Below are positions 10,888-60,350 of a stretch of 64,000 bases of DNA, piece after piece. Position numbers and translations under genes: made by a program. This DNA is from Fidelibacterota bacterium. Lineage in GTDB: Bacteria; Fidelibacterota; Fidelibacteria; Fidelibacterales; Fidelibacteraceae. The stretch's first letter is position 1. The number at the start of each line of letters is the position of its first letter. The stretch is taken from positions 1 through 64,000 of the forward strand of contig JASGMP010000005.1 in the NCBI GenBank assembly GCA_030156395.1. The letters run 5' to 3'. The notes beneath the pieces were generated by a model. The model saw only the letters and a program-made list of their open reading frames with translations. It had not been told where the DNA came from and made no database searches.

Positions 10888-13800
10888 TTAGAAATCATAA
10901 GAAATCCGGATGCCAAAGAAGATATCCCGGGGAGCCAGGAAGAGAAACGATTCATTCACAGGATTGAAAATATAGGCTTTGTCATCCAGAACTTTTTGGA
11001 CTGTACTCTTATCAACACGAGTCCACTCATTATTCACATACTGTACATACCGTTCCGTATCAGAAAGATCTTCCGGTATATTATCATCAGGGAAGAGTTC
11101 CTGAAGATCAGCTACATCACCCACATAGTAATAAGTCTTCGGATCAGGCTGTGTGAGTCCGGTTGCCCGGGATGTATATTTCAGTGGCTGATAAGGGACA
11201 CCCGGGTCACGGTAGTATCCCATTTTATCATCACCGGCAATATGCCGGAGTCCTAACTCTTCATACACACTTTCATTAAAATGTAAGGACTCCTGATACA
11301 TATCATACACGCCGGGGACAAGGTAGGAATCACCCAGGGCAGCGGTGGACAGTGATTTCTTGTTGAGGATATTATAAATATCCGCAATGATCTGGATTCT
11401 GAATTGGTTCAATGAAATGGTCTTTGAACCGCGCATATCAAGTCCCCAACTATCCACCCAGCGCACGTTATTGATAATGGAAGGGTTATTTCCAAAGGTG
11501 TGATAACCGCCTTTCCGCCATGTACCCGTGAAAGCAAGCTGCCAGTTGGCAAGGGGTGCGAGTCCACCCATTTCCGGACCAAAATAATGTGGTGTTTTAA
11601 AAGCGATATTGTATTTAATCCGTGGGAGAGCCACGGGTTTATACTGTTTCTGGAGATTGATATTCCGCTCGGTGTCACGCTGGACCGCCGGGTTTTCATT
11701 TTGGGATCTTACACCAAAGTTACCGGATGAATAAACAGAATATTCATAGTTCACAAATCCCGTGACCCAATCACCAATTCGCTTCCGGAGTTCAATTTCA
11801 AGTCCACGGATATCCTGATACAACAAATTACTATACTGATAATAATCCACAACACCACCGACGCCCTGGTAACGAACCGTGGTGGCCTGATCGGATTTAT
11901 CTTTATAATACGCCGCAATATGGATCAGGTACATATCAAAGAGAGAGTGATCATAACCCAGCTCATAGGCGATTGTTTTTTCCATGGGAAGTTCAGGATC
12001 ACCCAGGTAAGAAAGAGAACCTCCATAGACCCGCTGGATTCCAAATAACTCAGAGGGTGAAAAGCGTTGTCTCATGTGACCGTAGTTAAAGTAGAGTTTC
12101 GAATCAACCGTAATGGGATGTGAAATCCCGATACGTGGCATAAGAGTAAAGAGCCCTTTTGCCCGTTTCATGGGCAGATTATCTTCATCTGTGACTTCCC
12201 TGGAAGCGACAGTTTTAATGGTTCTGTCAAAGGGTTCAAAATCAAACCAGTCCGTATTGGGGTTGAAATATTCGGCTCTCATTCCAATGGTAGCCACCCA
12301 GCCCTCGAATTCTAGTTTATCCTGGATATAGGCACCGATTTGCCAGGGAGATTTTTCCCAATCCGTCCATGGACGACCGGCGGGCAGGGCAGGGTTAACG
12401 GCACCATAGTTCATATCATAGTTGAAATACTCAAACTGGGCCCCGGTTTTAATCTGGTTATTCTGATTGACCTGCGAAACAAAGTCCCAGCGGGCCTTGA
12501 ATGCCCAGGTTTTGGTGGAATCCCGGGCATTGCTTTTTGCACCCATCATATAACCGTCAATACTTTTGGTCAGATCCGTATCAAATCCCCAGGGTGCTTC
12601 ATCCACCAGGTACTGATCTTCTCCTTCAGTCCCTGGCAGCACGTTGTATCGGGGTGTAAAATCCCGGGGTTCTGCCGGGCCGGTCAGATATTCAGTGCTT
12701 CGATATTCAAGCAATGTTTCATGATAGGATTTTCCGCTGAGCTGATGTGTCAATTTTGCCGAAAAGACATCACTCCAAATATCCGTCTGACAATAGTAGT
12801 GAGGATAAAAAATCTTTGAGCGCTGTTGAGAGCTGCTTCCAAAAGCACCAGCCACTCCCCAGATGGTGGAAGAAAAATAGGAAGGAAGTCCAGTTTCACT
12901 GGCTGAGGAAGCATCCGTCTTTTTATGAAAACCGGTCAGCTGCAGTTTAATTCTATTTGTGATATCTGAAGTGATTTTGGTTGAAAGAGACCACTCTTCG
13001 TAGGCATCTCTGGCCAAAGGCACCAAATACATATCCTTTTCCTTCCGGAAAGAGGCATAGAACCTGAGATTACCCAGGTATTTGCTGACAAAGGGAACCG
13101 GTCCGCCAAGTCCTACATCGATATTATAATCCGGTTCGGTAATATCCCCCTGCCGGCGGTGTTCCCATTTGAAAATCTGCTGTGCACCGGTAGGTGTTAT
13201 ATCATCGCTGGGATCATCGTTGGCCAGACGGTCACTGGCGAGTGCATTCCATCCCTGAAAGGCCGGATACATTTTCCGGGTGTGCTCATCCCAGGGGTTG
13301 TAGTATTCACCGTCCCCGTTGCGATCATTGAAAGGTTCGCCAGGATCCCAATATCCATCTTTATTCAGATCCTCGAAAGTCTCTGGTGCCGTTCCCCACC
13401 AGGCAACATCATCATCCAGCCATGGACGCATATATATTGAATTGGGATCATAAATGGACAAGCCAAAATGTTTCGGAGCAGCCGGACTGTATTTAAAGGT
13501 CCCGTCAAAGGAATACTTATCAACACGTCCTTCTTTAGTCACCACATTGATCACCCCAGCCTGGAGGTCGCTGTATTCTGCGTTAAAACCACCGGACTGA
13601 ATCATGATTTCCTGTACCGAGCTTAAAGGTACTCCGGAAACGGGCTGACCGGTCCGGTCATCTTTCATGGACACACCATCCATCATATAAGCCAGCTCAT
13701 CGGTTCCACCCTGCCGGACTTCGAGTCCGCTCACACCAGCCTGCATGCCAATAACATCTTCCACACTTGTGGCCGGTAAATCTTCGATCTGTTCCGATCC

Positions 13801-14190
13801 CAGGTTGGTCTGACTCGAAGCCACATCTACCCGCATGACCTTCCGCTCGGCCACAACCGTGACCGTTTCCCCCTGGAAAGCCTGGGGTTTTAAGGCAAAA
13901 TTCACCTGAGTTGTCAAATCAATTTCCACCTGGACTCCGGATTGGGTCAATGTGGCATAACCCACATAAGAAGCAGAGACTGAGTAGACGCCCGGTGGCA
14001 CGTTGAGGATTACATAAAATCCATCCTGATTCGCCGCAGCACCATAAACAGTCCCCTCTACAATAACATTGGCCCCCGGTAAAGGATTACCGTTCTGGTC
14101 CGTTACTGTTCCCATGATCTTACCCGATGTCTGTCCATAGGCAAGTCCGAACAGCATTGTAAGCGCAAGTAAACCTCTCCACAATTTCAT
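10888..14190 (-). CDS. TonB-dependent receptor with N-terminal carboxypeptidase-like domain, copy 2
   Basis: 1100 residues and the first gene of the run. A short signal peptide (MKLWRGLLALTMLFGLAYG) precedes a CarboxypepD_reg-like domain at about 22-105 (N-P-L-P-G-A-N-V-I-V-E-G-T), a plug domain (V-V-A-E-R-K-V, D-E-L-A-Y-M-M-D-G-V, G-G-F-N-A-E-Y-S-D-L-Q-A-G-V-I-N-V-V-T) and a long barrel. It matches copy 1 throughout, but carries an Asp/Asn/Gly-rich insertion near residues 270-295 (D-L-N-K-D-G-Y-W-D-P-G-E and D-R-N-G-D-G-E) with the spacing of EF-hand or dockerin calcium loops, which copy 1 lacks. An outer-membrane importer energised by TonB is expected; substrate unknown. Its promoter should lie in 14191-14450. 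Confidence 0.9.
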   Translation of the reverse strand: MKLWRGLLALTMLFGLAYGQTSGKIMGTVTDQNGNPLPGANVIVEGTVYGAAANQDGFYVILNVPPGVYSVSASYVGYATLTQSGVQVEIDLTTQVNFALKPQAFQGETVTVVAERKVMRVDVASSQTNLGSEQIEDLPATSVEDVIGMQAGVSGLEVRQGGTDELAYMMDGVSMKDDRTGQPVSGVPLSSVQEIMIQSGGFNAEYSDLQAGVINVVTKEGRVDKYSFDGTFKYSPAAPKHFGLSIYDPNSIYMRPWLDDDVAWWGTAPETFEDLNKDGYWDPGEPFNDRNGDGEYYNPWDEHTRKMYPAFQGWNALASDRLANDDPSDDITPTGAQQIFKWEHRRQGDITEPDYNIDVGLGGPVPFVSKYLGNLRFYASFRKEKDMYLVPLARDAYEEWSLSTKITSDITNRIKLQLTGFHKKTDASSASETGLPSYFSSTIWGVAGAFGSSSQQRSKIFYPHYYCQTDIWSDVFSAKLTHQLSGKSYHETLLEYRSTEYLTGPAEPRDFTPRYNVLPGTEGEDQYLVDEAPWGFDTDLTKSIDGYMMGAKSNARDSTKTWAFKARWDFVSQVNQNNQIKTGAQFEYFNYDMNYGAVNPALPAGRPWTDWEKSPWQIGAYIQDKLEFEGWVATIGMRAEYFNPNTDWFDFEPFDRTIKTVASREVTDEDNLPMKRAKGLFTLMPRIGISHPITVDSKLYFNYGHMRQRFSPSELFGIQRVYGGSLSYLGDPELPMEKTIAYELGYDHSLFDMYLIHIAAYYKDKSDQATTVRYQGVGGVVDYYQYSNLLYQDIRGLEIELRKRIGDWVTGFVNYEYSVYSSGNFGVRSQNENPAVQRDTERNINLQKQYKPVALPRIKYNIAFKTPHYFGPEMGGLAPLANWQLAFTGTWRKGGYHTFGNNPSIINNVRWVDSWGLDMRGSKTISLNQFRIQIIADIYNILNKKSLSTAALGDSYLVPGVYDMYQESLHFNESVYEELGLRHIAGDDKMGYYRDPGVPYQPLKYTSRATGLTQPDPKTYYYVGDVADLQELFPDDNIPEDLSDTERYVQYVNNEWTRVDKSTVQKVLDDKAYIFNPVNESFLFLAPRDIFFGIRISYDF

Positions 14191-47120: not shown

Positions 47121-48350
47121 TTACTCATATCTCAGAGCTTCGATAGGATCCAGCTTGGCTGCTTTGACAGCAGGATAGGTTCCGAAAACCACGCCGATTA
47201 CCGAACACATCACCACCCCGATAATCGCCCACTGGACGGGAAAAACCCCGCTCACATCCATGGACACAGCCACTAGGTTTCCGGCAAGAATTCCCAAAAC
47301 AATACCGATGAGAGCTCCCATTTCTGTTAAAACCAGAGATTCAAGGAGAAACTGATTCATAATATCCCGTTTTCGGGCTCCCATGCTTTTACGGATGCCG
47401 ATTTCCCGGGTTCGTTCAGTCACACTGACCAGCATGATATTCATGATACCGATACCGGCAGCTATAAGGGCAATTGAACTGATGAGAAGAGCGGCCATTT
47501 TGATGGCACCTGTTACCTGATTGAAAGTATCAATAAGCGACGTATTGGATACAACCTCAAAATCATTTTCTTCCGTCAGAGGAACACTCCGAATCAGGCG
47601 TAAATGGAATACAATTTCCTCCTGAACCTCTTCAAACCGTTCCATATCCATCACCGCAATCGCGTATCCCAGGGATGTCCATCGGCTTGCAAACATTTTC
47701 AGATGGGTTGTCAGTGGTATAATCACTACATGGTCTTCGGACTGGCCAAAAATACTCCCCTTCCGTTCCAGGGTTCCAATCACCTTGAATTTAACCCCCC
47801 GGATGGTAACCGTTTGTCCCACCGGGTTATACTGAGGCATAAGGACATCAACCACATCTTGTCCCAGGATTATCACATTCCGCATTTGTTCCAGGTCGTT
47901 CCGGGTAATCATCCTGCCACTTTGCAGAAAATAGCCGGATGAAAATTCCCATTCAGGTGTCACGCCTCGAATCCCCACACTGTTTTTTGTCCGTTTGTCT
48001 TCAAACTTGATGGGGTCTCCACTGTGCCAGTTTTCAGCTGTGATTGTGGCCGGGCCGGAAAAACGGTCTTTCAGCTGAAGATAATCTGCATAGGTTAGAT
48101 TTTTCCGGTTACGGTACTTCCAGTGCGTTCCACCGCCCATTTGGACTGCAGGGTACTTCTGAATAAAAAAGGTGTTGGTCCCCAAAACATTCAGATTGCT
48201 TTCGACAGATTTCTGGAGGACATTGATCGCCGTCATCACACCAATAATGGAAAACATCCCGATCACAACGCCGAGAAGTGTCAGAAAAGAACGAAGCTTA
48301 TTTTGTCGGATGGAATCCAGGGAGGATGTGAGCACTTCATGCAAATTCAT
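47121..48350 (-). CDS. MacB-type ABC transporter permease (second permease)
   Basis: 409 residues: one N-terminal membrane helix, a periplasmic MacB_PCD domain at about 45-240, and three C-terminal helices of the FtsX type. Typical motifs are L-R-S-F-L-T-L-L-G-V-V-I-G at the start, G-I-G-I-M-N-I-M-L-V-S-V-T-E-R-T-R-E-I-G-I-R-K-S in the second helix region, and D-P-I-E-A-L-R-Y-E at the end. It probably pairs with the permease at 48432-49649 as a heterodimer. Last gene of the export operon, 81 bp after the other permease. Confidence 0.93.
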   Translation of the reverse strand: MNLHEVLTSSLDSIRQNKLRSFLTLLGVVIGMFSIIGVMTAINVLQKSVESNLNVLGTNTFFIQKYPAVQMGGGTHWKYRNRKNLTYADYLQLKDRFSGPATITAENWHSGDPIKFEDKRTKNSVGIRGVTPEWEFSSGYFLQSGRMITRNDLEQMRNVIILGQDVVDVLMPQYNPVGQTVTIRGVKFKVIGTLERKGSIFGQSEDHVVIIPLTTHLKMFASRWTSLGYAIAVMDMERFEEVQEEIVFHLRLIRSVPLTEENDFEVVSNTSLIDTFNQVTGAIKMAALLISSIALIAAGIGIMNIMLVSVTERTREIGIRKSMGARKRDIMNQFLLESLVLTEMGALIGIVLGILAGNLVAVSMDVSGVFPVQWAIIGVVMCSVIGVVFGTYPAVKAAKLDPIEALRYE

Positions 48351-48431
48351 ATTTTATTCCTCACCCCCATCAAAGGGTGTATTTCTGAATCTCTCAATCT
48401 TAACCTCAACAATTATCATGTCTTCTTTTCT

Positions 48432-49649
48432 TTACTCATATCTGATGGCTTCAATGGGATTCAGGCGTGCAGCCAGATTGGCCGGGACCATTCCCGATAA
48501 AATACCTGTGATCACCGAGACGGAAAGGGAAATGATGATGAGATCGATGGAGAGTCGCGCTACAAAGAACTTCTGTAAAAGCCCAACAAGTCCCACCGTA
48601 ATGAGAATTCCGATGGTGCCGCCGATTAGAGAAATAATCACGGCTTCACTGAGAAACTGAAAAAGGATAATATTCTTTTTGGCTCCCAGGGCTTTACGAA
48701 TACCAATCTCTTTGGTTCGTTCCCGGACACTCACGAACATGATGTTCATAATACCAATGCCACCCACAATCAAAGAAAGGGCTGTAATGCCAATTCCCAC
48801 AACGCTGATCGCCATCCGTATACTGGCAAATTGCTGCCGGAAAGCCTCTTGTTGGTTGATGGAAAAATTATTCTCCTCTTGGGGCTTCAATCCCCGAAGT
48901 CCCCGCATGATAAACATCAGTTCTTCTTTCGCCTGTTCTACCGTTACCCCCTCTTTGGGTTTCACGCTGATAGACATTCCCCATCGGCCACCAAAAATGT
49001 TTTTCAGGGAGTTCAAGGGAATCGTCACAATATTATCCATACTCATGAGTCCCAGAAACTTACCCTGTTGCGCAATCACACCGATAATTCGAAATGTATT
49101 TCCCTGGATGATAATCTCTTTGCCCAAGGGATCTTCATTGGGGAAGAGACTTGTTTTGATATCATAACCAATCACCGCCACCCGGGTACCATAACGGCTT
49201 TCGGGTTCTGAAAAAAAGCGGCCGGATTCCAGTTTCAGGGCTGAAATATAGGCTTCCTGCCAGGTTGTTCCATTGATTTCCACCCTTTCCACGGCATTTT
49301 TCCCATATTTTACATCACTTCGTCGCCCTGTTGAAGGTGTGGCAAACGCAATGGTGCTTGCTCGTTCCAGGATTTGTTCCGCATATTTCTCCTCAATGTC
49401 GGGGCGGTTCCGGTATTCCCACCATTCATCATTCATCATAAACCAGGGATATTTTTGGACATACAGCACATCCTGCCCCATCCCCTGAATACTGTTTTCA
49501 AAAACTTCATCGATTCCGGAAATGGCAGTTCCCATGAGGGACACAGATAAAATGCCGATGATAATACCCAGCATAGTTAAAAATGCCCGGGTTTTATTCT
49601 GAAGAATGGCCTTTATGGCCATGATTACACTTTCAAACAGCTGACCCAT
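48432..49649 (-). CDS. MacB-type ABC transporter permease (first permease)
   Basis: 405 residues with the same plan as its neighbour: N-terminal helix, periplasmic MacB_PCD domain, three C-terminal FtsX helices. It carries G-I-G-I-M-N-I-M-F-V-S-V-R-E-R-T-K-E-I-G-I-R-K-A and ends N-P-I-E-A-I-R-Y-E. MacB-type pumps do not move substrate through the membrane but push it from the periplasm into an outer-membrane channel. It starts directly after the ATPase gene with no gap. Confidence 0.93.
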   Translation of the reverse strand: MGQLFESVIMAIKAILQNKTRAFLTMLGIIIGILSVSLMGTAISGIDEVFENSIQGMGQDVLYVQKYPWFMMNDEWWEYRNRPDIEEKYAEQILERASTIAFATPSTGRRSDVKYGKNAVERVEINGTTWQEAYISALKLESGRFFSEPESRYGTRVAVIGYDIKTSLFPNEDPLGKEIIIQGNTFRIIGVIAQQGKFLGLMSMDNIVTIPLNSLKNIFGGRWGMSISVKPKEGVTVEQAKEELMFIMRGLRGLKPQEENNFSINQQEAFRQQFASIRMAISVVGIGITALSLIVGGIGIMNIMFVSVRERTKEIGIRKALGAKKNIILFQFLSEAVIISLIGGTIGILITVGLVGLLQKFFVARLSIDLIIISLSVSVITGILSGMVPANLAARLNPIEAIRYE

Positions 49650-50375
49650 TTACCCTTTTCCCTTAGGTGTGAATTCGTCACTGGCAATTAGCCCGTCCAG
49701 AAAGTGGACAACCCGGTGTGCATGTTGGGCAATATCCGTCTCATGCGTGACCAAAATAATCGTATTGCCTTCGTCATGAAGGTGATCCATGAGCTGCATG
49801 ATTTCGCGGGATGTTTTGCTGTCCAGATTCCCGGTGGGTTCATCCGCCAGAATGATCGAAGGATTGTTCACCAGGGCTCTGGCAATGGCCACTCTTTGGC
49901 GCTGTCCCCCTGATAGCTCATTGGGCTGATGATGCATCCTGTCCTCCAAATTCACCTTTCTAAGGGCTTCTTTTGCCATATCCAGCCTATCTTTTTTGTG
50001 GATTCCGGCATAGATCAACGGAAGTTCCACATTGTGCAAGGCCGTTATGCGGGGTAGAAGGTTAAAAGTCTGAAAGACAAACCCGATTTTTTGATTTCGT
50101 ACAAAAGCAAGATCATCATCGGATAATTTACCGACACTGCTTTGCTCAATGCGATCATCGTGGACTGTTTTTCCATCCAGTATATAGGTTCCTGAAGTCG
50201 GTGTATCCAAGCATCCTATGACATTCATGAGAGTGGATTTTCCCGAACCGGAGGGACCCATCACCGAAACATATTCATTTTTCTCAACCATCAGGTCAAT
50301 TCCCCGAAGAGCATGAACAGCCACAGTCCCAACCTGGTACACTTTTGTTACTTGTTTCAGTTCCAATAAGGCCAT
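49650..50375 (-). CDS. MacB/LolD-type ABC transporter ATP-binding protein
   Basis: 241 residues from the ATG at 50373-50375. It has an AAGGAG site built into the stop codon region of the adaptor gene, and an in-frame start 84 bp upstream would lie inside that gene. Walker [10 protein letters not shown], signature [11 protein letters not shown], Walker [13 protein letters not shown] and the switch histidine in V-T-H-E-T are intact. It powers the two permeases downstream. The sequence is of the LolD/MacB/FtsE class. Confidence 0.95.
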
Positions 50376-50385
50376 GTTCAGCTCC

Positions 50386-51597
50386 TTAGCGTTTTTTACC
50401 GGATTCGTTGGTTTCCTCATTCTTGGATTTCTTGACATGCATCCCGGTTTGCAATTCACGGCTCAGGACTTTATGATTTCCAATGACAATTTCATCCCCT
50501 TCCTGGATACCGGATTTAATCTCGAACAGATCCTGACTGCTGAGTCCGATGGTGACAGGTACTGCCGTTACGGTATCCTGATCCACCCGGAAGATGACTT
50601 CAACCATTTCGTCCCCGGCTTTCTCTTTGGGTACAGAAGAAGAAAGGCTGTCTTTTTCATCTGGTTTAAACACCTTATCGGCAGGTCGCACGGTGACACT
50701 CTGAATAGGAACGGCAATGGTATTCTCCGCCTTATCCGTGAGAATTTCAACCGTAGCACTCATGCCGGGCCGCATCATATCCGGCACTTCCAGCATTTCA
50801 ACCAGAACTGTAAAATAGGTAACTGCTTCTTGTGTCCCCAATCCGGTGGATTGGGCCAGATTGGCGATATCCGTGACCACTCCTTTAAAAGACGTATCTG
50901 GGATGGCATCAATTTCAATATCCACAGGATCATTCAGCGAGACCCTGACAACATCGTTTTCATTGACATCCACTTCCACTTCCATTTTGGAAAGATCCGC
51001 CACAACCATGATAATATCAGCCTGAAATTGAGATCCCAGGGCAATTTCTCCCGCTTCTTTCCGAACCTGGATTATCGTTCCATCGATGGGAGAAATGATC
51101 GTTGTCTTGGACAGATTATCCTCGGCCTGTTTTAACCCTGATTCCGCCTGGGCTAAATTACTCTGAATACTTTCATATTCCGCCAAAGCCTGATCCAGGT
51201 CCGCCTGGCTCAGATTGCCCGATTCATACAAAGCCTGCGCTCTTTTGAGATCTTTTTTTGCTTTTTCAAAAGCAACTTTTGTAGAAGAGTAAACCGCCCT
51301 GGCACTAACCACCGCTGCTTCGTAACGGACTTTATCCAACTGGGCCAAGACCTGTCCCTTATGGACATTCTGACCATCCTTGACATTCATTTCAATAATT
51401 TCACCGGCGACATTGGCGCTGATATCCACCTGGGTGACAGGCTTCACACGTCCGCTGGCCGAAACTTTTTCTTCAACAGTATGGCGTTTGACAATTTCTG
51501 TTTGTACTTCAACCGCCTGTTCTTTGTTCATTTTTAAGTTGAAATACACGATGGCTGCTATCACCACAACGACAACCGGAATCATCCATTTTTTCAT
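50386..51597 (-). CDS. Efflux periplasmic adaptor (HlyD/MacA family)
   Basis: 403 residues. One N-terminal membrane anchor ([14 protein letters not shown]) is followed by a lipoyl half-domain ([18 protein letters not shown]), a long helical hairpin at about 90-165, the second lipoyl half ([10 protein letters not shown]), and beta-barrel and membrane-proximal domains. The tail is rich in charged residues. It joins the inner-membrane pump to the TolC-type channel encoded just upstream (1 bp gap). Confidence 0.93.
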
Positions 51598-51598
51598 T

Positions 51599-52846
51599 TT
51601 ATTTCCCTAAAAGTTGATCTATGTGTGCTTCTGTTATTTTTGTATTATACCGGGCTTCCACGAGCTGACTTTCTGAAGCAAGGACCGACAACTGGGCGTC
51701 CAGCTGATCCAGGATAGTCCCTGCTCCCAGTTCAACCTGCTGAGTAACCAGCTCATAATCCCGTTTTGCCGACGCCAGACTGATTTTATGAATTTCCGTA
51801 AGTTCCCGATAAGTTTTCATGGTTTGGTACAGTTCATCAAGGCGGGCAAACAAATCAGCCACGGTATTGTCATACCGGATTTGCATGGCCTTTAAATCAA
51901 TCTCGGCTTTTTGCTTTTCTGTACTTCTTCGAAATCCTTCAAAGAGGGATATATTCGCCGATAAGCCCAGCGAATTGGATTTAACTGTTCCCCCGTCGTC
52001 ATCCCTGTATGAATAGGTATAATCCCCTGAAACCGTCGGCAGATAAGACTCTTTTTTTATTTTTACATTCAGCTTTTGAATTTCAATCTGTTTTTCCAAG
52101 GCCAGGAGAGAGAAATTATTTTGTTTGATCAGATTCCGGGCATCCTGAATATCCGGCAGGCCGGCAGGCTCAGGACTCATGGGCTGAAGCCTTAGCTCCT
52201 GTGCCGGATCCTGACCCATCAATAGATTCAGCTCGCGTTTCAAACTCCGGTTCCGTTGTTCTTCAGATAAAAGCTGGCTTTGAAACTGGCCTTTTTGAAC
52301 CTTCACTTTCAGCAGGTCAGATTCAGTTCTTGCCCCCAGTTCCAACATGTTCTGAACACGTTTGATATTTTCTTCGGCAAAGCGGATATTTTCTTGATAG
52401 ACGGCAATCAATTCATCAGAGGCCAGGATACTGTAATAATATTGTATCACCGAAGCTTCCAATAATGAGATGGCATCCTGCAAATTCAATCCCGCCGCCT
52501 CTTCCGAAAATTTTGCCGCTTTTAAGCCAGAAAATAATCCGGGATAAAACACATTCTGACTCACCGTCCCTGAAAGTGTATAACCGGAGTTATCAGTTGT
52601 AACGATAGAATTATCGGTATGGGAATAGCTGGTTGAAACGCGTCCATAAACAGAGGGATAAAGGTCAGAATAACTCTGTTTAACCGTCAATCCGGTTTTT
52701 TCTGTTTCAAGCCGTTGCTGTAAAAGGTCCCCATTTGCCCTCAAAGCCAGTTCTTGACATTCGCTCAGTGTCATAAGTGGAGCACCTTGAATCCATCCCG
52801 CAATCCCCAGACACATGAACATCCCTAATACCTTGCGTACCTTCAT
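51599..52846 (-). CDS. TolC-family outer-membrane channel
   Basis: 415 residues with a signal peptide (MKVRKVLGMFMCLGIAGWIQ). Two repeats of the outer-membrane efflux protein domain are visible: each has long amphipathic helices (L-S-E-C-Q-E-L-A-L-R-A-N-G-D-L-L-Q-Q and A-E-E-N-I-K-R-V-Q-N-M-L-E-L-G-A-R-T-E-S-D) with beta strands such as V-Y-G-R-V-S-T-S-Y-S and V-S-G-D-Y-T-Y-S-Y. It gives the exit pore for the MacB-type pump and could also serve other exporters in the cell. First gene of the five-gene export operon. Confidence 0.92.
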   Translation of the reverse strand: MKVRKVLGMFMCLGIAGWIQGAPLMTLSECQELALRANGDLLQQRLETEKTGLTVKQSYSDLYPSVYGRVSTSYSHTDNSIVTTDNSGYTLSGTVSQNVFYPGLFSGLKAAKFSEEAAGLNLQDAISLLEASVIQYYYSILASDELIAVYQENIRFAEENIKRVQNMLELGARTESDLLKVKVQKGQFQSQLLSEEQRNRSLKRELNLLMGQDPAQELRLQPMSPEPAGLPDIQDARNLIKQNNFSLLALEKQIEIQKLNVKIKKESYLPTVSGDYTYSYRDDDGGTVKSNSLGLSANISLFEGFRRSTEKQKAEIDLKAMQIRYDNTVADLFARLDELYQTMKTYRELTEIHKISLASAKRDYELVTQQVELGAGTILDQLDAQLSVLASESQLVEARYNTKITEAHIDQLLGK

Positions 52847-52911
52847 GAATCAATCCTGTTTTTATTTTCTTCGTTTCAGACACCCTGATAAATAAATGGT
52901 TGTCCACTTTC

Positions 52912-53613
52912 TTATGCGAGGGGTGAAAAACCCTGCAGAATAATGGTAATTACAGCTCCAAGGAACCAGATAATACCTGTCAGAATAAAAGCTTTTTTAC
53001 CTGAATATGAATAAATCACCTTGAAGGCAATAATCCAGAGTATCCATTTCCAAATTTTAAAAATATCCACCTGCATAGCAATCCGAAACCAGATATCAGA
53101 TAAATCAAAATCGCTGAAAAACATGGCCAGACTGGTATGAACCATCATAGTTTTTTGAGCCAGCATAATCGGAATCTTTACAGCACTGGCCAGGACATCT
53201 ACCAGACTGATGTGCAGGGCCGTTGCCAGCAATGTCATATATTTGGCATTTCCACCGCCAAAAAAATTCCCCATAAACAGATAGATAACTGCCGTAAAAA
53301 AAGCATAAATAATCGGGGTGATACCCCCGAGGATTATATTCTGAACCGGGACTTCATCCGTGGAGATCCGCTGCAACATGGCTTCTCTTTGCTGTTCGGT
53401 CAGATTGTCCATACGGGTGATCATCTGTCGGCTTTCCTTGACCTGAATGGGATGGGTTAGCTGTACTGTAAGCATTGAAACAAGCACCAGCAATAAAACC
53501 GGCAACCACAAATCCTTCCAGGTGATTTCTACTTGAAACGATGCAAAGGCCCTTTTCGGATTGACAAAAACTTCCAGTACCCGTTTAAAAGAAGTCATTT
53601 TTTCACTTACCAT
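52912..53613 (-). CDS. Yip1-family membrane protein
   Basis: 233 residues. A cytosolic N-terminus with F-V-N-P-K-R-A-F-A-S-F, the usual opening of bacterial YIP1 proteins, leads into five membrane segments with the last two near I-L-W-I-I-A-F-K-V-I-Y and F-I-L-T-G-I-I-W-F-L-G-A. The ATG follows AAGGAG. Function is unknown for the bacterial family. It lies 65 bp upstream of the TolC gene and may be transcribed with the export operon. Confidence 0.8.
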   Translation of the reverse strand: MVSEKMTSFKRVLEVFVNPKRAFASFQVEITWKDLWLPVLLLVLVSMLTVQLTHPIQVKESRQMITRMDNLTEQQREAMLQRISTDEVPVQNIILGGITPIIYAFFTAVIYLFMGNFFGGGNAKYMTLLATALHISLVDVLASAVKIPIMLAQKTMMVHTSLAMFFSDFDLSDIWFRIAMQVDIFKIWKWILWIIAFKVIYSYSGKKAFILTGIIWFLGAVITIILQGFSPLA

Positions 53614-53688: not shown

Positions 53689-54231
53689 TTACATGAAATC
53701 CAAATCTTCATAACCGCTACTATCATAAAAAAAGATATTATTATCATGAATGTTATGTACATCATATAAATATTGAATTAATTTTTTAAGGGAATTTTTC
53801 TGCTTATCCGGGAGCCAGGATCCTGTAGGAAATTTCATGTCAGAGATACAACACAAGTGAAGATATGGATCCATTTTATTCCGTGTTTCACAGAAAAACA
53901 CGGTATCCCTTCCCTGATAGATATGCCCCCTTTTATCTATGATATAATGATAATTTATATCCGGATAACCAAGTCGTAAGATCTGGTAATTCTGCAATAA
54001 GCGGGGACTCATATCGCAACTGAAACCGGAATAGTGAATACAAATTCCTGTAAAAGGGGTATTGTGGCGGTGGATGCTTTCCATTCGCTGGGGATAAACC
54101 GGTTTACGGGCATTCCAGGCATCTCTGGGAATGATGTGCGGTGTATGCCCGTTCTCCGCGCATGCCTGAAAAAGAACAAGACAAGCAAAAAGTTTAAGGA
54201 ACCGTCTAAAAATGACGGGTGTAATAATCAT
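53689..54231 (-). CDS. PGRP/amidase-2-like exported protein, probably without full zinc site
   Basis: 180 residues from the ATG at 54229-54231, where a signal sequence begins; an ATG at 54252 is also possible. A cysteine at residue 24 after L-V-L-F-Q-A could be a weak lipobox. The domain matches PGRP/amidase_2 in I-I-P-R-D-A-W-N-A-R-K-P, I-C-I-H-Y-S-G (first zinc His) and G-Y-P-D-I-N-Y-H-Y-I-I-D-K-R-G-H-I-Y-Q-G-R. The C-terminal block that should read G-H-x-D...C-P-G is Y-D-S-S-G-Y-E-D-L-D-F-M, so the second His and the Cys are absent. It may bind peptidoglycan without cutting it. Last gene of the peptide locus. Confidence 0.7.
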   Translation of the reverse strand: MIITPVIFRRFLKLFACLVLFQACAENGHTPHIIPRDAWNARKPVYPQRMESIHRHNTPFTGICIHYSGFSCDMSPRLLQNYQILRLGYPDINYHYIIDKRGHIYQGRDTVFFCETRNKMDPYLHLCCISDMKFPTGSWLPDKQKNSLKKLIQYLYDVHNIHDNNIFFYDSSGYEDLDFM

Positions 54232-54790
54232 GAGCTGTAAGTCCCAATTCATTCAGATAAAATTCCTGGTCCATGGTTTTTCCGTAATCAATTCCACGGC
54301 CGTAGTAAGATCCCAGGGCTGCTACATCAGGAAGATATCCAAAGCGTTTCATAAAGTGATCCTGTATAATTCGGCAATACACAACACTATACACCATATT
54401 GGTATCGGGAAAGGATAACCGATGAATCAAATGGGCTCTGTCTTTTGATGGAGAAAAGGGTAAACGCTCAGAATGATGGAGTTCAATCCACTCGCAGGTG
54501 GAAATTTTCATCTGGGCAAATCCCACGGAGGCATCAAACCCCAGCCGGGCTCTACTGAAATCCGCCTTGTCCAAATGATTGACATTATGAAGCCGCTCGG
54601 CAAAAACAACACTGGCATACGCGGAAGGAGATAAAGAAAATTTTTCACACACCTGATGGATGGTTTCACGATATTTCGACATATACCTTTCTGTTCTGAC
54701 TTCCTTAATTTTGAATCTGATTTGCGTGTTAAATATAAAGATCAGGCAGATAGCCATCATAATAACAAGCCATTTCAGTGCTTTTTTCAT
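54206..54790 (-). CDS. Membrane-anchored lysozyme-like (lytic transglycosylase-type) protein
   Basis: 194 residues. An N-terminal anchor (W-L-V-I-M-M-A-I-C-L-I-F-I-F) precedes a helical domain with S-A-Y-A-S-V-V-F-A-E-R-L-H-N, where the Glu is placed like the catalytic acid of goose-type/SLT lysozymes, and D-A-S-V-G-F-A-Q-M-K-I-S-T, like the G-x-x-Q-x-x-P/S motif of SLT domains. Later helices contain A-A-L-G-S-Y-Y-G-R-G. It would act on glycan strands in the periplasm; the fold call is from short motifs. The start (GAGGAA site) lies 62 bp inside the upstream gene and the 3' end overlaps the PGRP-like gene. Confidence 0.6.
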   Translation of the reverse strand: MKKALKWLVIMMAICLIFIFNTQIRFKIKEVRTERYMSKYRETIHQVCEKFSLSPSAYASVVFAERLHNVNHLDKADFSRARLGFDASVGFAQMKISTCEWIELHHSERLPFSPSKDRAHLIHRLSFPDTNMVYSVVYCRIIQDHFMKRFGYLPDVAALGSYYGRGIDYGKTMDQEFYLNELGLTAHDYYTRHF

Positions 54791-55271
54791 AGAATTTCCT
54801 CAAAACTTTTATGTCCAGTCCCAGTCTCCAGGGATTTGCCGGTTCATACAGAAAAAAATACCGGCAAATATCCTCCTTGTAATAACAGAGCACGTTCACA
54901 GGGATATCCAACAATTTGGGAAAGGGAATTTGGGTTTCACACACCTCTAATTCGGCAGTCAGCAATGTCTCGTTTGCTACAATCGTCAGGGGCCATGTCG
55001 GAAAATGTGTTTTCAGATACGTAATCCATGTGTTCAAATGCTCATCCCGGTTTATCAGTAGAAGCAATCCTTCATCATGGTTTGTTTCAAAGAGTGAGTC
55101 CACCGGTGTGAAGAGGTAGCGGGCTCTGAGATTTTCAAGTTTAAGGAGTTCTGAAACCGAACGATCTGCATGAAGAAGACTTCGGGATAGTTCTTTCTGA
55201 CGGTACAATAGCAGGAGTATCCAGAAAAGGAGCAACATCAGAATCAGAAAATTGATTTTTTTATTCATCAT
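54729..55271 (-). CDS. Membrane-anchored protein of unknown function
   Basis: 180 residues. The first of two adjacent ATGs follows an AAGGAA site. One membrane helix (I-N-F-L-I-L-M-L-L-L-F-W-I-L-L-L-L) is followed by a polar helix and an alternating domain with L-L-L-L-I-N-R-D-E-H, W-P-L-T-I-V-A-N-E-T and I-P-V-N-V-L-C-Y-Y-K-E-D. The order of strands resembles a thioredoxin-like fold without the C-x-x-C motif, but I cannot confirm this. It overlaps the glycosyltransferase gene by 11 bp and the lysozyme-like gene by 62 bp, so it belongs to the peptide locus. Confidence 0.65.
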   Translation of the reverse strand: MMNKKINFLILMLLLFWILLLLYRQKELSRSLLHADRSVSELLKLENLRARYLFTPVDSLFETNHDEGLLLLINRDEHLNTWITYLKTHFPTWPLTIVANETLLTAELEVCETQIPFPKLLDIPVNVLCYYKEDICRYFFLYEPANPWRLGLDIKVLRKFYEKSTEMACYYDGYLPDLYI

Positions 55272-55989
55272 CTGTTCCTTTATTACTTTCGGGAAAAATA
55301 CCCATAGTCACAGCTTCTGATGTCAGTCGTTGGATACGATTCAGAAGGCGCCGGTTTGGTTTATCGTACATGATATATTCTGCCAGGGTTTCAGGATTAG
55401 GAAGTCCGGCCACCAACAGGATCATGTCATCAAGTTGCAGATTATCCACCTGCTTCCCAAACAATGTCCGCACCGCGGAAGAAAGTCCCACTGTATTGGG
55501 CGACCACATGATACAGTTGACATAGAGTTCAAGAATTTCATCTTTCTTTAGAAGGGATTCTACAATCAAGACACCCACCATTTCATGGATTTTATTCCAT
55601 ATCGTCCGGTCACAGGATCCCCAAATCGTTTTCACCAGTTGCTGTGTCAATGTGCTGCCCCCTGAATAGACCGATCGGGAAACCCTCGGCGTCTGCAAAA
55701 TTTTGAAAATCCGGAAAAAATCCACACCATGATGCTCGTAAAAGCGATGGTCCTCGGAGGACAACAAGAGCAGAACCAGGGCATCAGGAAGCTCCTCCCG
55801 GTGAATCCAGTTTCCGTCCAGCGTGGGTAATCGGGACATTTCTCCTTGCAGATAGGTGGATTTCCGGATCAGGTTATGTAGTTCGGGCATGGATTTTTTT
55901 TTCAAAACCCGCCCTCTGTGAACCCAGATCCCACAATAAACTGTGAACAAAATCAGCAAAACGCATAAGGCTACTTTCATGCCGTCCAT
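55261..55989 (-). CDS. mtgA: Monofunctional GT51 peptidoglycan glycosyltransferase
   Basis: 242 residues from the ATG at 55987-55989; a TTG 66 bp upstream would overlap the previous gene. An N-terminal membrane helix (V-A-L-C-V-L-L-I-L-F-T-V-Y) precedes the GT51 domain with S-S-E-D-H-R-F-Y-E-H-H-G-V-D (catalytic Glu), Y-S-G-G-S-T-L-T-Q-Q-L-V-K, and L-L-K-K-D-E-I-L-E-L-Y-V-N-C-I. No transpeptidase domain follows, and the length is that of MtgA. It polymerises lipid II into glycan strands. Its presence inside a peptide-export locus, coupled to unknown and lytic genes, is unusual. Confidence 0.88.
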   Translation of the reverse strand: MDGMKVALCVLLILFTVYCGIWVHRGRVLKKKSMPELHNLIRKSTYLQGEMSRLPTLDGNWIHREELPDALVLLLLSSEDHRFYEHHGVDFFRIFKILQTPRVSRSVYSGGSTLTQQLVKTIWGSCDRTIWNKIHEMVGVLIVESLLKKDEILELYVNCIMWSPNTVGLSSAVRTLFGKQVDNLQLDDMILLVAGLPNPETLAEYIMYDKPNRRLLNRIQRLTSEAVTMGIFPESNKGTDDE

Positions 55990-55993
55990 TATT

Positions 55994-56713
55994 CTAATAG
56001 ACCCTTTCAAAAACTGCCGTATATTTCCCCAAAGAAAGTCCAAGGACTTTACCAATTCGGGTGGTTGATTTTACTTTCATGATTTCATACGGTGGATAAT
56101 CCGTTATCCACACATAATCTTCCTGTCCCATGAAAGGGCCGGACTTCATACGAATGTGCCATGTTCGGCATGGGATTATCTGATCCTGAAGGCAGAGCGT
56201 ATCCATTCCGACTGATTTAAAGAGGTATGGCACTGTTTTACCATTATACAGGTAGAGCTCAACGGCGGTATCTGTGGAAGGGGGAAAAAACAGAAGGCGG
56301 GCAAAGCGCGCATAGGAGGGAAACGTGACCTTGTGAAAAGGTGTATGCAGGATATAGGATTTCTCTTTCATCCGTTTATGGACGATATATTCCTTTTTCT
56401 GGAAATCTACTTTCACCTCCTCTCCCAGGGCAGGAATCCAAAACCAAAGAGGATTACCCGTTTTATGATGAAAAATCACATCTACACCACCAAGGGGTGA
56501 GGCCGTAAAAACTTCCCTGTAACGAAGACATTTCAGTGAATCCACAAGCGTATCGGTGATGCTAATTGTCAGATAATCATTTTTATCCTGTTGTTTTAAA
56601 ACCCATATGTCCTGCCTGAAGACGTCCGGGTCCGATGCCGTCAGGACAGACACTATCACAAACCCGAAGATCAGGCATACCAAAAAGGATAGTTTGAGTC
56701 GTTTCATAAACAC
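55994..56713 (-). CDS. Exported protein of unknown function (weakly DUF3108-like)
   Basis: 239 residues, starting at GTG (56711-56713, AGGA site) or at the ATG two codons later. A signal peptide (MKRLKLSFLVCLIFGFVIVS) precedes a strand-rich body. Segments such as K-T-V-P-Y-L-F-K-S-V-G, C-R-T-W-H-I-R-M-K-S-G and V-W-I-T-D-Y-P-P-Y-E-I-M-K-V-K recall the DUF3108 half-barrel, in which an oxidation-tolerant pair of strands carries a dehydrated ligand, but this is a weak match. Two cysteines (about residues 177 and 184) could pair. It is separated from the peptide gene by the hairpin at 56743-56768 and lies 4 bp before mtgA. Confidence 0.65.
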   Translation of the reverse strand: MFMKRLKLSFLVCLIFGFVIVSVLTASDPDVFRQDIWVLKQQDKNDYLTISITDTLVDSLKCLRYREVFTASPLGGVDVIFHHKTGNPLWFWIPALGEEVKVDFQKKEYIVHKRMKEKSYILHTPFHKVTFPSYARFARLLFFPPSTDTAVELYLYNGKTVPYLFKSVGMDTLCLQDQIIPCRTWHIRMKSGPFMGQEDYVWITDYPPYEIMKVKSTTRIGKVLGLSLGKYTAVFERVY

Positions 56714-56742
56714 TTTTTCCTATCTGTATTCTTTCATAAGAC

Positions 56743-56768
56743 CGGGAGAGCCGGAAACGGCTCTCCCG
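56743..56768. terminator. Strong hairpin after the peptide gene (partial terminator or mRNA stabiliser)
   Basis: CGGGAGAGCCG (56743-56753) pairs perfectly with CGGCTCTCCCG (56758-56768) around a four-base loop: an 11-bp GC-rich stem located 17 bp after the peptide stop codon. On the transcribed minus strand no U-run follows, so it does not look like a complete rho-independent terminator. A role in protecting the 3' end of the upstream message or in lowering read-through into the downstream genes is plausible. Confidence 0.7.
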
Positions 56769-56784
56769 ATGTGCCCCCGGGATT

Positions 56785-56952
56785 TCAGTCACAATACCGG
56801 AAAATCAGCGATGTTCCGATATTCATGACCATTCCCTGTGATGTGAAGATACCGAAGCCCAGGGTAACGATTCCTGCCAGGCAGGCAAGATAAGACCCGG
56901 GCAAGTATCCTCCTGTGTACTCCATCATCTCGTTCAAGGTAAGCTCATTCAT
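56785..56952 (-). CDS. Double-glycine-leader peptide, bacteriocin-like precursor
   Basis: 55 residues. The ATG at 56950-56952 follows a GGGGGTCGG site and overlaps the stop of the thioredoxin-like gene by 8 bp. The leader is MNELTLNEMMEYTGG. Counted back from the cut it has Leu at -12, Thr at -11, Glu at -8, Met at -7, Tyr at -4 and Gly-Gly at -2/-1, in agreement with the class II leader pattern L-S-x-x-E-L-x-x-I-x-G-G. The 40-residue core starts YLPGSY, is hydrophobic and glycine-rich (G-F-G-I-F-T-S-Q-G), and has Cys at core positions 9 and 39. A C39-peptidase ABC transporter three genes upstream is the expected processing exporter. Bacteriocin, signal or structural peptide all remain possible. 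Confidence 0.8.
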   Translation of the reverse strand: MNELTLNEMMEYTGGYLPGSYLACLAGIVTLGFGIFTSQGMVMNIGTSLIFRYCD

Positions 56953-57502
56953 TTCCGACCCCCTTTCTTTCATGTTGCTTGTGATTCGCCGGGATCCATT
57001 GCAGGAGCTCCCGGATATCCCTGTCACCGCGCAGTGAATGGACATATGTATGTTCACCGTCATAGATAAATGTGACGGGTAAAGGCGGATCCCCAAAGCA
57101 GGTATAGGCGGTGCTGACATTCAGAATACCTATGGTAAAACGGGAATCCTGCCGAAGTGAAATGCAGGATTCATATATACATGAAGTAAAAAAGGTTTTA
57201 TCTGTCGTAAACAGGCCGTACTGGACATCTGGCAACTTTTCTTGCATTCGGTTCAGGCGCGCCAGATATTGCACACAGTAGGGACAATTTACGGAAAAGA
57301 GAATAATAATTTTATATTTCCCTCTTTCCGGTATAAATTTTTGGGGGCCCGAAATGGCGTCGTATGTAAAGGAAGATAATTCAACATGGGGTGTCTCAAT
57401 TTTCATAATCCAGATAACAAGTGAGACACTGACCATCAGAATGAGGAGAAGCCACACAATTCCCTGAAGGGTAAACCCACTTTCATAACATATAGATTTC
57501 AT
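56945..57502 (-). CDS. Membrane-anchored thioredoxin-fold protein
   Basis: 185 residues from the ATG at 57500-57502 (GGGAG site); an upstream start lies inside the previous gene. One membrane helix at about 13-33 (Q-G-I-V-W-L-L-L-I-L-M-V) places the domain in the periplasm. The active site is N-C-P-Y-C at residues 72-76 and the cis-Pro loop is P-P-L-P-V-T-F-I-Y-D-G, as in TlpA/MauD-like proteins. Further cysteines (about 112, 117 and 139) are present. It could form or reshuffle the disulfide that the two-cysteine peptide encoded by the overlapping downstream gene may carry. Confidence 0.8.
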   Translation of the reverse strand: MKSICYESGFTLQGIVWLLLILMVSVSLVIWIMKIETPHVELSSFTYDAISGPQKFIPERGKYKIIILFSVNCPYCVQYLARLNRMQEKLPDVQYGLFTTDKTFFTSCIYESCISLRQDSRFTIGILNVSTAYTCFGDPPLPVTFIYDGEHTYVHSLRGDRDIRELLQWIPANHKQHERKGVGNE

Positions 57503-58166
57503 AGAAAACTCCCAGTCCCCACATGAGAACAATTCCTAAAATCCGGGCGGTTAGCAATGGTAAGAGAATCTTTTTCATTTTGAACCCTGTCCAGGCAGCC
57601 AGGGTCAAAAGAACCCATACAAGCCATGCTCCTTCAAAACAGTTAAAAGCATTCAGAAGTTTATTTAATACAGGATAGGTATCTACAGACACAACCGCAC
57701 TGAGCGCCAGGGGAACACTGAGGACTTCCCCGGCTTGGTCACCCGAAACGTTCAGGTTGGACAGGGGAATGAATTTTGAAACATCCCTGAGGATGAAGAA
57801 ACCAAAGGCAGGCACGATTGCATGAAAAACGCTTTTGAAAGAGATCCATACCTGGGTCAGCATGAAAAAAAGATGTATCAAAAGCGCCATCAGGGTCATT
57901 CGGATCAGAATGAAAAAAGGGATACACAGCAATGTCCAGTATGTAATATCCTGAATGCGCGCAAAAATCAGGTCAATATAAACCGGTGAAAATTGTTCAC
58001 CCAGGAACCGTTCCACGGTTTGGCGTGTTGTAAAATGATCCTGATAGAACCAGACCGTTGCCATGGAAAGAACAGACCACAAGATTAAGAATCCTGTCCA
58101 GGGGACAGATTTAATGCGTTGAAAAAAAGGTCGATAAGCAAGTGTAAGCATCATATCACCCAGCAT
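57483..58166 (-). CDS. Polytopic membrane protein (possibly Yip1-like)
   Basis: 227 residues with about six hydrophobic segments: near F-L-I-L-W-S-V-L-S-M-A-T-V, L-L-C-I-P-F-F-I-L-I, A-L-L-I-H-L-F-F-M-L, V-P-A-F-G-F-F-I-L, A-W-L-V-W-V-L-L-T-L and I-L-G-I-V-L-M-W-G-L. The end pattern resembles Yip1 proteins. Its start overlaps the transporter stop by 11 bp and its end overlaps the thioredoxin-like gene by 20 bp, so all three are translated from one message. Possible roles are an immunity protein or an export helper; the sequence alone does not decide. A start 12 or 15 bp further in is possible. Confidence 0.72.
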   Translation of the reverse strand: MLGDMMLTLAYRPFFQRIKSVPWTGFLILWSVLSMATVWFYQDHFTTRQTVERFLGEQFSPVYIDLIFARIQDITYWTLLCIPFFILIRMTLMALLIHLFFMLTQVWISFKSVFHAIVPAFGFFILRDVSKFIPLSNLNVSGDQAGEVLSVPLALSAVVSVDTYPVLNKLLNAFNCFEGAWLVWVLLTLAAWTGFKMKKILLPLLTARILGIVLMWGLGVFYEIYML

Positions 58167-60279
58167 ATTCTCTTTTCAGATCTACAACCGTTTGAGCCAG
58201 ATCCATCATTTGGGAATCGTGACTAATGAGAATGACAGCATGATGTTTCGCATACATTTTTATCCATTTCAGAACCCGGTGACGGGTCATACGGTCCAGC
58301 GAATTGAAACACTCATCTAAAATCAGGACATCCGGCTCTTCGAGGATTGCTCGAAGAAGTCCCACTAATTGCTTTTCTCCCCCGGAGAGCCGTCTATGCC
58401 CTTCACCGAGAATCGTCAAAAGACCGTATTCAAATTTTTGGATAAACCAGTTAAAATCCCGGTGTATTTCATTCAACCATCGGAAATTTTTCGGTTTCCG
58501 CCCCAGGAAAATATTATCCCGCAGTGTCATATTGAAAATCTTCACATCCTGACTGACCAGACCAAAATGCCGGCGGTAATCCACGATATCCGTCATCATC
58601 ACAGGTTTGCCATTCCAATACATATCCCCTTCACAGAATTGATATTGCCGTAGGATGGAATGAATCAGGGTTGTTTTGCCCGTTCCGTTATCACCGGAAA
58701 TCTGTATCAGTGATCCTTTCCGAAGTGAAAAACTAATCTTTTCAAACAGGGGTTGATATTTGGGCCATTGAAAAGTACAGTTCCGGAGATCCAGGGAAAA
58801 ATCCGGGACAGGATCACTGGTTTTCCCTTCGCATGTTTCTACGGGATGAATTAAAAAATCCCGGAGCCGGGTGATTGCTTCCCGGGTTTCTGCAGCCTTT
58901 AACGCATTTTCCATCACTCTGAAAAGAGAGGGAATAAAATTAGACGTAAGAATAAAGGCGGCAAGCCAGTTGCCAAAGGATAGATGTCCATTCATCACCC
59001 TCAGGATACCTCCTCCGATAAAGAGAAGCTGAAACACCCCAAGGCCGCATTCTGAAAGGACAAATAAGCGGCTATTCAACAATCCGACATCTTGCCATCG
59101 ACTAAGAAAAGCATCATATTTTTCCCTGTTTAAACGGATAAAATAGGGATGGACACCAAAGGCGGAAATCTCCGCCATCCCTTCCATGGTTTCAATCAGT
59201 TCATGACTGAAGGCTGCCCCTTTTTGAAGCATGGTATTCTGAAGTTTCCGAAGCCGGGGATAGAACCCTGCCAATATTCCAGCCAGCAACAGAATAAACA
59301 GGGTGGACAAAGCTGCCAGCAGCGGAGAAAAAACAACCATCACAAGAAGGCTTCCAACCAGAATAAAAGCATCTGCCAGTCCATGCAGAAGGGTAAACTG
59401 GTAAAAGGACTGTATCCGAAACATGTCCAGAAAGCGGGATGTGATTTCACCGGTACTGAAACGCGATATAATCCCGTAGGGAAGATGCGTAAAATGAGAG
59501 ATGGACGATTGGAAAATATCCTGAAAAAGGATTTTCCCATGGCGGTAAAAAAGGAGATTCCGGATATATGTCACAGCACTTCGGATGAGTAAAAAACATG
59601 ATAAAAAAACAAGACTTATCAATAACAACTGTTGATCCTGTCGGGGGATTACCCTTTCGGTCACCGCCCTGATGAGAAATGCCGTAAAAAAACCTGCAAA
59701 GATTGAAATCACACCACAAAATAGAATTTGAAGCACATGATCTGCATATTTTCTGACATAGGATACCAGCCACGCCCCATCCGATTGATAATCCGGATCC
59801 CGATACGTGGAAATGCACTGGACTGTCATCAAAACCCGGCTTTTCCACAAGGAATCCAGCGCTTTCTGATCCATCCAGTAAAGACCTTTGGCGGGATCCC
59901 CAATCAAAAACCTACCCTTTTTATGAGCATAAACGATTACATAATGAGTCATGTGTTCCGGAAGTTCACAATGAAGAATCACCGGTAATTCCATTTCCGG
60001 GTATTTCCCTTTCTCAACCCGGAATGCAGAGCATTTCATTCCTGTTTTTTCAGCCGCTTGTTTCAAATCGTATAAACGGCATCCTTTATAATCGGTATGA
60101 CACAATAAACGGAGTTTATCCAGGTAAGTATATCCACCAAAATATCGAATCAAACTTAGAAGACAGGCCGGTCCGCAGTCCGAGGACTGATGCTGTTTCA
60201 CGAGAGGATATTTGAAATAGTTAATAATCATTTTTCTATAACTATGTTTCTGTAAAAATTTTATTCTATTTTCAATCAT
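58156..60279 (-). CDS. C39-peptidase-containing ABC transporter (bacteriocin exporter type)
   Basis: 707 residues. The N-terminal peptidase C39 domain (about 25-155) has catalytic Cys35 in S-S-D-C-G-P-A-C, His112 in M-T-H-Y-V-I-V-Y and Asp128 in I-G-D-P-A-K-G. Six membrane segments follow at about 180-440, then an ABC domain with Walker A S-G-D-N-G-T-G-K-T-T, signature R-L-S-G-G-E-K-Q-L and Walker B V-L-I-L-D-E-C-F. Such proteins cut after the double glycine and export the core. The start could also be Met17. First gene of the locus, behind a terminator at 60325-60344; its promoter should lie in 60280-60320, but I cannot fix it. Confidence 0.93.
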   Translation of the reverse strand: MIENRIKFLQKHSYRKMIINYFKYPLVKQHQSSDCGPACLLSLIRYFGGYTYLDKLRLLCHTDYKGCRLYDLKQAAEKTGMKCSAFRVEKGKYPEMELPVILHCELPEHMTHYVIVYAHKKGRFLIGDPAKGLYWMDQKALDSLWKSRVLMTVQCISTYRDPDYQSDGAWLVSYVRKYADHVLQILFCGVISIFAGFFTAFLIRAVTERVIPRQDQQLLLISLVFLSCFLLIRSAVTYIRNLLFYRHGKILFQDIFQSSISHFTHLPYGIISRFSTGEITSRFLDMFRIQSFYQFTLLHGLADAFILVGSLLVMVVFSPLLAALSTLFILLLAGILAGFYPRLRKLQNTMLQKGAAFSHELIETMEGMAEISAFGVHPYFIRLNREKYDAFLSRWQDVGLLNSRLFVLSECGLGVFQLLFIGGGILRVMNGHLSFGNWLAAFILTSNFIPSLFRVMENALKAAETREAITRLRDFLIHPVETCEGKTSDPVPDFSLDLRNCTFQWPKYQPLFEKISFSLRKGSLIQISGDNGTGKTTLIHSILRQYQFCEGDMYWNGKPVMMTDIVDYRRHFGLVSQDVKIFNMTLRDNIFLGRKPKNFRWLNEIHRDFNWFIQKFEYGLLTILGEGHRRLSGGEKQLVGLLRAILEEPDVLILDECFNSLDRMTRHRVLKWIKMYAKHHAVILISHDSQMMDLAQTVVDLKREYAG

Positions 60280-60320: not shown

Positions 60321-60350
60321 CAAAAACCCGGACAACTCCGGGTTATTTTT
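60321..60350 (-). terminator. Rho-independent terminator of the barrel gene
   Basis: On the minus strand, AACCCGG (60344-60338) pairs with CCGGGTT (60331-60325) around a six-base loop and is followed by TTTTTGCTTTT. It ends transcription coming from the gene at 60381-62039, so the transporter gene that starts 45 bp further on should have its own promoter. Confidence 0.87.

Follow-up and report, generated by a model that had tools for sequence, protein, structure and literature searches.

The leader consensus of peptidase-containing ABC transporters (PCATs) is L(-12)xxxE(-8)L(-7)xxxxGG, and PCAT1 reads these positions (PMC6959990). In the case of pediocin PA-1, a thioredoxin-like accessory protein, PedC, serves the disulfides of the peptide (PMC5465099), and in Bacillus the YknWXYZ system protects against the 42-residue SDP toxin (PMC4887032). 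Double-glycine (GG) peptides are also described in Neisseria, where the Nap peptides (16–36 residues once mature) and a C39 processing gene belong to a horizontally acquired nap island; these peptides act in autolysis, which starts with peptidoglycan remodelling by LtgA, and not in the killing of competitors (PMC11798529). A literature search returned no bacteriocin study of Marinimicrobia.

The window, i.e. the whole stretch of 64 000 nucleotides analysed here, belongs to a genome of 2.0 Mb in 123 contigs and includes the following features:

60325–60344, minus strand: terminator-like hairpin, separating the genes below from the upstream outer-membrane gene
58156–60279, minus strand: PCAT (Pfam Peptidase_C39, 5.7e-31, with ABC_membrane and ABC_tran)
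57483–58166, minus strand: unclassified multi-helix membrane protein of 227 aa, genus-specific
56945–57502 (start at 57502 or 57532), minus strand: membrane-anchored thioredoxin-like protein, with invariant CxxC and cis-Pro loop (PPLP)
56959–56966, minus strand: Shine-Dalgarno AAAGGGGG, 6 nt ahead of the precursor ATG and within the thioredoxin-like gene
56785–56952, minus strand: precursor peptide gene, 55 codons, ATG start at 56952
56741–56770, minus strand: GC-rich 13-bp hairpin, directly 3' of the peptide stop codon
55994–56713, minus strand: secreted all-beta protein, genus-specific, with a predicted half-barrel fold
55261–56055, minus strand: stand-alone GT51 peptidoglycan glycosyltransferase, catalytic motifs intact
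54729–55271, minus strand: membrane-anchored unclassified protein of 180 aa
54206–54790, minus strand: muramidase-like protein (profile match to Tse3, aligned Glu invariant)
53689–54252, minus strand: Amidase_2/PGRP-like protein, C-terminal zinc ligands not visible
47121–53613, same gene row: YknWXYZ/MacAB-like exporter (YknW-family (Yip1) protein, TolC, MFP, ABC ATPase, two MacB-like permeases)

The original prediction, made from the sequence alone, had described a 55-codon gene with its own ribosome site, giving no strand. Such a gene is found on the minus strand; its first 8 nt lie within the upstream thioredoxin-like gene, and relatives also have the purine-rich GGGGG/GGAG site that precedes it. 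The translation, MNELTLNEMMEYTGGYLPGSYLACLAGIVTLGFGIFTSQGMVMNIGTSLIFRYCD, comprises a 15-residue leader, MNELTLNEMMEYTGG, and a predicted mature core of 40 residues, YLPGSYLACLAGIVTLGFGIFTSQGMVMNIGTSLIFRYCD. The leader carries Leu -12, Thr -11, Glu -8, Met -7, Tyr -4 and Gly-Gly, exactly as had been claimed for the six positions, and the core is indeed hydrophobic, with two cysteines (C24 and C54 of the precursor, C9 and C39 of the core), a computed GRAVY of +0.97, a pI of approximately 6.1 and a net charge of approximately 0.

An open reading frame this short could also arise by chance, or encode a membrane peptide without relation to the transporter, and its leader pattern is of a kind expected approximately 0.25 times per window (three matches in 12 x 64 kb of order-3 Markov sequence). 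The precursor, with two nested starts, is the sole match to the strict pattern among 1566 start-opened frames of 30–120 aa in the window; given that chance level, the leader pattern alone is not decisive. Conservation, however, places the frame beyond chance. The gene is present in six of the six genomes of the genus, at the same location and in the same synteny each time, with a duplicated copy in one of them. Between G000 and G006, the peptide shows a single residue change (V29I) for 12 synonymous changes (98% identity), whereas its neighbours are 64–86% identical (C39 transporter 86%, membrane protein 74%, thioredoxin-like protein 70%, GT51 64%). Values of omega for the peptide, based on 55 codons, are 0.02–0.05 in five of the six close pairs and 0.14 in the pair with the fewest changes, compared with 0.06–0.09 for the transporter and 0.1–0.3 for the other island genes; no other protein of the cluster is as constrained or as little variable. 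The excess of synonymous over nonsynonymous change gave P-values ranging from 0.05 (pair with the fewest changes) to 1e-11, with approximately 1e-6 for G000–G006 and less than 1e-8 for pairs with G007. A frame lost in relatives, or evolving free of selection, had been named in advance as grounds for rejecting the prediction; both were looked for, and the opposite was found. This substitution pattern rules out a non-coding status for 56785–56952, and with low omega, mostly synonymous change and invariant leader positions, a chance frame or a peptide foreign to the transporter appears very improbable.

Seven leader residues differ between G000 and G007, none of them at -12, -8, -7, -2 or -1, and all seven peptides keep L-12, E/D-8, a hydrophobic residue (M/L) at -7 and Gly-Gly. 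Neither cysteine changes in any of the peptides, nor does the C-terminal Asp, and this holds for the second peptide of G005 too (L049, G005:C154, 7093–7248, minus strand). This diverged tandem copy, MEELSQADLLTYSGG followed by FWSFGCILGLNMLLSGVMIDINWHVKAGTAFIRWFCD, lies directly after the first, with the same leader positions, two cysteines and a C-terminal CD; the five other species have a single peptide. The original prediction mentioned neither this second peptide nor the thioredoxin-like and membrane partners, nor the wall-enzyme half of the locus.

Beyond the genus, the peptide profile returned only noise from the remaining 239 genomes of the phylum searched, and no relatives were found in phages, plasmids or viral contigs. 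That no named peptide family came to mind for this core was borne out in Pfam, NCBIfam, PHROGs, PDB, phages and plasmids: the best NCBIfam E-values (0.019–0.021) are below cut-off, the curated bacteriocin family TIGR03949 (class IIb lactobin A/cerein 7B) scored 14.6 bits against a cut-off of 21.5, and Pfam gave no match. The locus holds a small, real and very strongly conserved gene for a GG-peptide without relatives outside the genus in the collections searched.

The assignment of this peptide to the transporter at 58156–60279, as initially proposed, is close to certain given their linkage, the leader positions and the selection described above. The transporter is the only PCAT of the source genome, its catalytic residues Q29, C35, H112 and D128 are invariant in six species, and its closest solved structures by sequence are PCATs (8vp3, and PCAT1, 4ry2); translation probably begins at its conserved internal ATG, residue 17. 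The three best PDB matches of the peptide profile, although weak (E 0.38–2.2), are all PCAT substrates and lie over the leader. Furthermore, the close relatives of the transporter and those of the peptide are present or absent together across 245 genomes of the phylum, bar a distant PCAT fragment in G204, and a search of genome contigs with the transporter yielded, apart from generic ABC proteins, only this genus (Marinimicrobia bacterium 46_43, 94% identical). We therefore consider that the peptide is very probably cleaved and exported by the adjacent PCAT.

Two other loci deserve mention. The G204 PCAT, from another family of the phylum (L147, G204:C233, 1–1220), was considered as a carrier of the same peptide and set aside: directly upstream it has instead a MauE-like membrane protein (CGCFG), i.e. 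another redox partner next to a PCAT, and no cargo appears before the contig breaks off. The other C39-like domain of the source genome occurs in a stand-alone protein of 175 aa without ABC part (L148, G000:C47, 258–785), adjoining a gene judged by eye to be N-formylglutamate amidohydrolase-like.

The adjacent thioredoxin-like protein is, by natural inference, a candidate disulfide catalyst for the peptide, with Pfam thioredoxin matches below cut-off. As this anchored protein carries an invariant CxxC and PPLP next to a two-cysteine core, a situation comparable to that of PedC, the core cysteines are probably joined in one disulfide. The membrane protein at 57483–58166 is harder to place, as it is confined to the genus and matches no Pfam or NCBIfam family. 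Inspection by eye had suggested another protein of the Yip1/YknW type, an identification that was not retained as it lacked support: no family matched, profile–profile comparison with the neighbouring YknW-family protein returned nothing, and the low-confidence AF2 model (pLDDT 62) received no Foldseek support. By its position this protein is a possible, if tentative, immunity protein, with a role in assembly as the alternative candidate.

The explanation that best fits the whole, to which we attribute a probability of roughly 0.55, is a PCAT-exported disulfide peptide with antibacterial use as its most likely function. In this scheme, the C39 domain of the PCAT would bind the precursor leader via L-12, E-8 and M-7 and cut after Gly15, the ABC part would move the 40-residue core over the inner membrane, and the periplasmic CxxC protein would oxidize C24 and C54 to a single disulfide. 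The product would be a neutral, very hydrophobic, probably helical membrane-inserting peptide of approximately 4292 Da, which might act on membranes in the manner of a bacteriocin or microcin, the membrane protein at 57483–58166 possibly giving immunity. This explanation is supported by purifying selection, genus-wide presence, leader changes that spare the PCAT-read positions and the invariant Q/C/H/D of the transporter, by the parallel with PedC (a CxxC neighbour and two invariant cysteines), and by the tandem peptides of one relative, reminiscent of two-peptide bacteriocins. Taken separately, a bacteriocin- or microcin-like membrane activity is the best single functional reading, one for which we would put the odds at about even. 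Against it, the cargoes of bacteriocin systems tend to be patchy and variable, whereas this peptide is found in all six species and is the least variable of its cluster. Its core is neutral rather than cationic, no immunity protein could be recognized by homology in the island, the flanking wall enzymes are foreign to classical bacteriocin loci, and the island comes without an outer-membrane export pair.

These wall enzymes lead to a different reading. The order of nine genes (PCAT, membrane protein, thioredoxin-like protein, peptide, beta protein, GT51, unknown protein, muramidase-like and amidase-like proteins) is kept in the genus, the genomes compared being mostly drafts, with the G005 locus divided between two contigs and the G004 contig stopping after the amidase-like gene. 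The PCAT, membrane protein, peptide, beta protein, amidase-like protein and short GT51 are present in 6/6 genomes of the genus and 0/13 other genomes of the family, and as a set the island is specific to this one genus of uncultured Marinimicrobia. The all-beta protein, in a model of pLDDT 77, comes closest to the half-barrels of YmcC, LolA3 and MucB/RseB, with weak matches (best E approximately 0.003, TM-scores mostly 0.2–0.5). The stand-alone GT51 comes on top of the family's long GT51-bearing protein, and sister genera carry distant relatives of the muramidase-like gene in different genomic contexts.

From this shared pattern of the tested genes, the exported peptide could instead act on the producer's own envelope (regulated autolysis, wall opening or an envelope structure), in concert with the GT51, muramidase, PGRP/amidase-like and LolA/RseB-like proteins inherited alongside it. 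The genus-fixed disulfide peptide would then be the dedicated partner of private peptidoglycan proteins (synthase, muramidase and recognition protein) and of a lipid-carrier-like protein, and not a weapon. Such extreme conservation of the core is more what one expects of an internal partner than of an arms race, its fixed presence and neutral charge agree with such a role, and the gonococcal Nap GG-peptides offer a precedent in autolysis (PMC11798529). However, gene order is kept with the flanking core genes too, so that synteny alone is weak; the wall genes change more rapidly than that of the peptide; the amidase-like protein may, from its sequence, be catalytically dead; and a conserved hairpin divides the peptide from the wall genes. 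This hairpin (56741–56770) is fully (100%) paired in six species, four of its pairs showing compensatory change, and has a short U tail in some species only; given this weak tail, it is probably an attenuator or 3' stabilizer rather than a full terminator. Overall, we judge this role in the producer's own wall unlikely, though a serious competitor.

Regarding the enzymes themselves, the Amidase_2/PGRP-like protein, which ends in FYDS.GYEDLDFM, perhaps binds peptidoglycan rather than cutting it. Tse3-like muramidases form a family in Marinimicrobia (54206–54790 in the window; L099, 7307–7981; L102, 7202–7897 and 14008–14700); in a sister genus several come after secreted proteins of very large size, in one genome on two occasions, and no linked PCAT or peptide was found beside the homologues of sister genera.

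The same genus-wide conservation would also fit a PCAT-exported extracellular signal or biofilm factor, comparable to the Synechococcus EbfG peptides or Gram-positive pheromones, and GG-peptides with such roles do exist (PMC4997328; compare HetC, PMC10986499). No receptor, kinase or regulator gene is however found in the island. Its peptide core is, besides, far more hydrophobic than known pheromones, and we consider this role quite improbable.

As to the surroundings of the island, it is flanked by an outer-membrane gene on one side and by the YknW-family/TolC/MFP/ABC exporter on the other. Both flanking neighbours, the outer-membrane one and the YknW-family one, also occur in sister genera; accordingly, the nine genes appear to form a single insertion. 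Base composition was examined for the deviation that a recent transfer may leave, and none was seen (peptide gene GC 0.48 and GC3 0.61; other island genes GC 0.39–0.45; flanks 0.42–0.47). Within the island, neither an outer-membrane export pair nor an MFP is present; the nearest MFP/TolC genes (50386–52846) are part of the exporter, whose first three genes are also found together in a sister genus that lacks the island. Further along the window, a duplicated pair noticed by eye encodes TonB-dependent/SusC-like proteins with carboxypeptidase-like N-termini (3538–6786 and 10888–14190), each adjoining a similar partner of 730–760 aa (1339–3525 and 8575–10854).

The activity of this peptide has the merit of being directly testable, as the peptide is short enough for synthesis and has alongside it its exporter, a protein that probably catalyses disulfide formation, and candidate partners for immunity and for the wall. 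More generally, the unusual degree to which it is conserved, and its genetic association with wall enzymes, are relevant to the question of whether GG-peptides beyond the Gram-positives serve chiefly as weapons or as tools of the envelope.

Compared with described systems, the island differs from class II microcin loci, in which the C39 transporter has its own MFP and export proceeds via TolC, and two adjacent GG-precursors, as in class IIb bacteriocins, occur only in G005. Like the Neisseria Nap system, here likened by description, it combines a GG-peptide and a C39 processing gene in an island, but Nap peptides are cationic and come with a FapF-type outer-membrane channel. The SDP toxin of B. 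subtilis (42 aa, one disulfide) is of similar size and hydrophobic, as is this peptide with its one possible disulfide; SDP is not known to be a C39/GG substrate. A YknW-family/MFP/TolC/ABC set adjoins the island, recalling the SDP efflux system YknWXYZ (PMC4887032). However, sister genera that lack the island have these Ykn-like neighbours as well, and the parallel is therefore only a lead. With pediocin PA-1 and bactofencin A (pedABCD type) it shares a clustered GG-precursor with cysteines, thioredoxin-like accessory and C39 transporter (PMC5465099), the CxxC protein directly adjoining the cysteine-containing precursor as for PedC; it differs by the lack of a class IIa motif and of a recognized immunity protein, by another cysteine spacing, by a neutral core and by additional wall-enzyme genes. 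Finally, unlike PCAT1–CtA, the host belongs to Marinimicrobia, the partners are a thioredoxin-like and an unclassified membrane protein, and the 15-residue leader precedes a 40-residue core without sequence match to the 66-residue cargo of CtA; as in PCAT1–CtA and Gram-positive PCAT systems, a C39–ABC fusion with intact catalytic residues faces a leader with L-12, E-8, a hydrophobic -7 and GG (PMC6959990).
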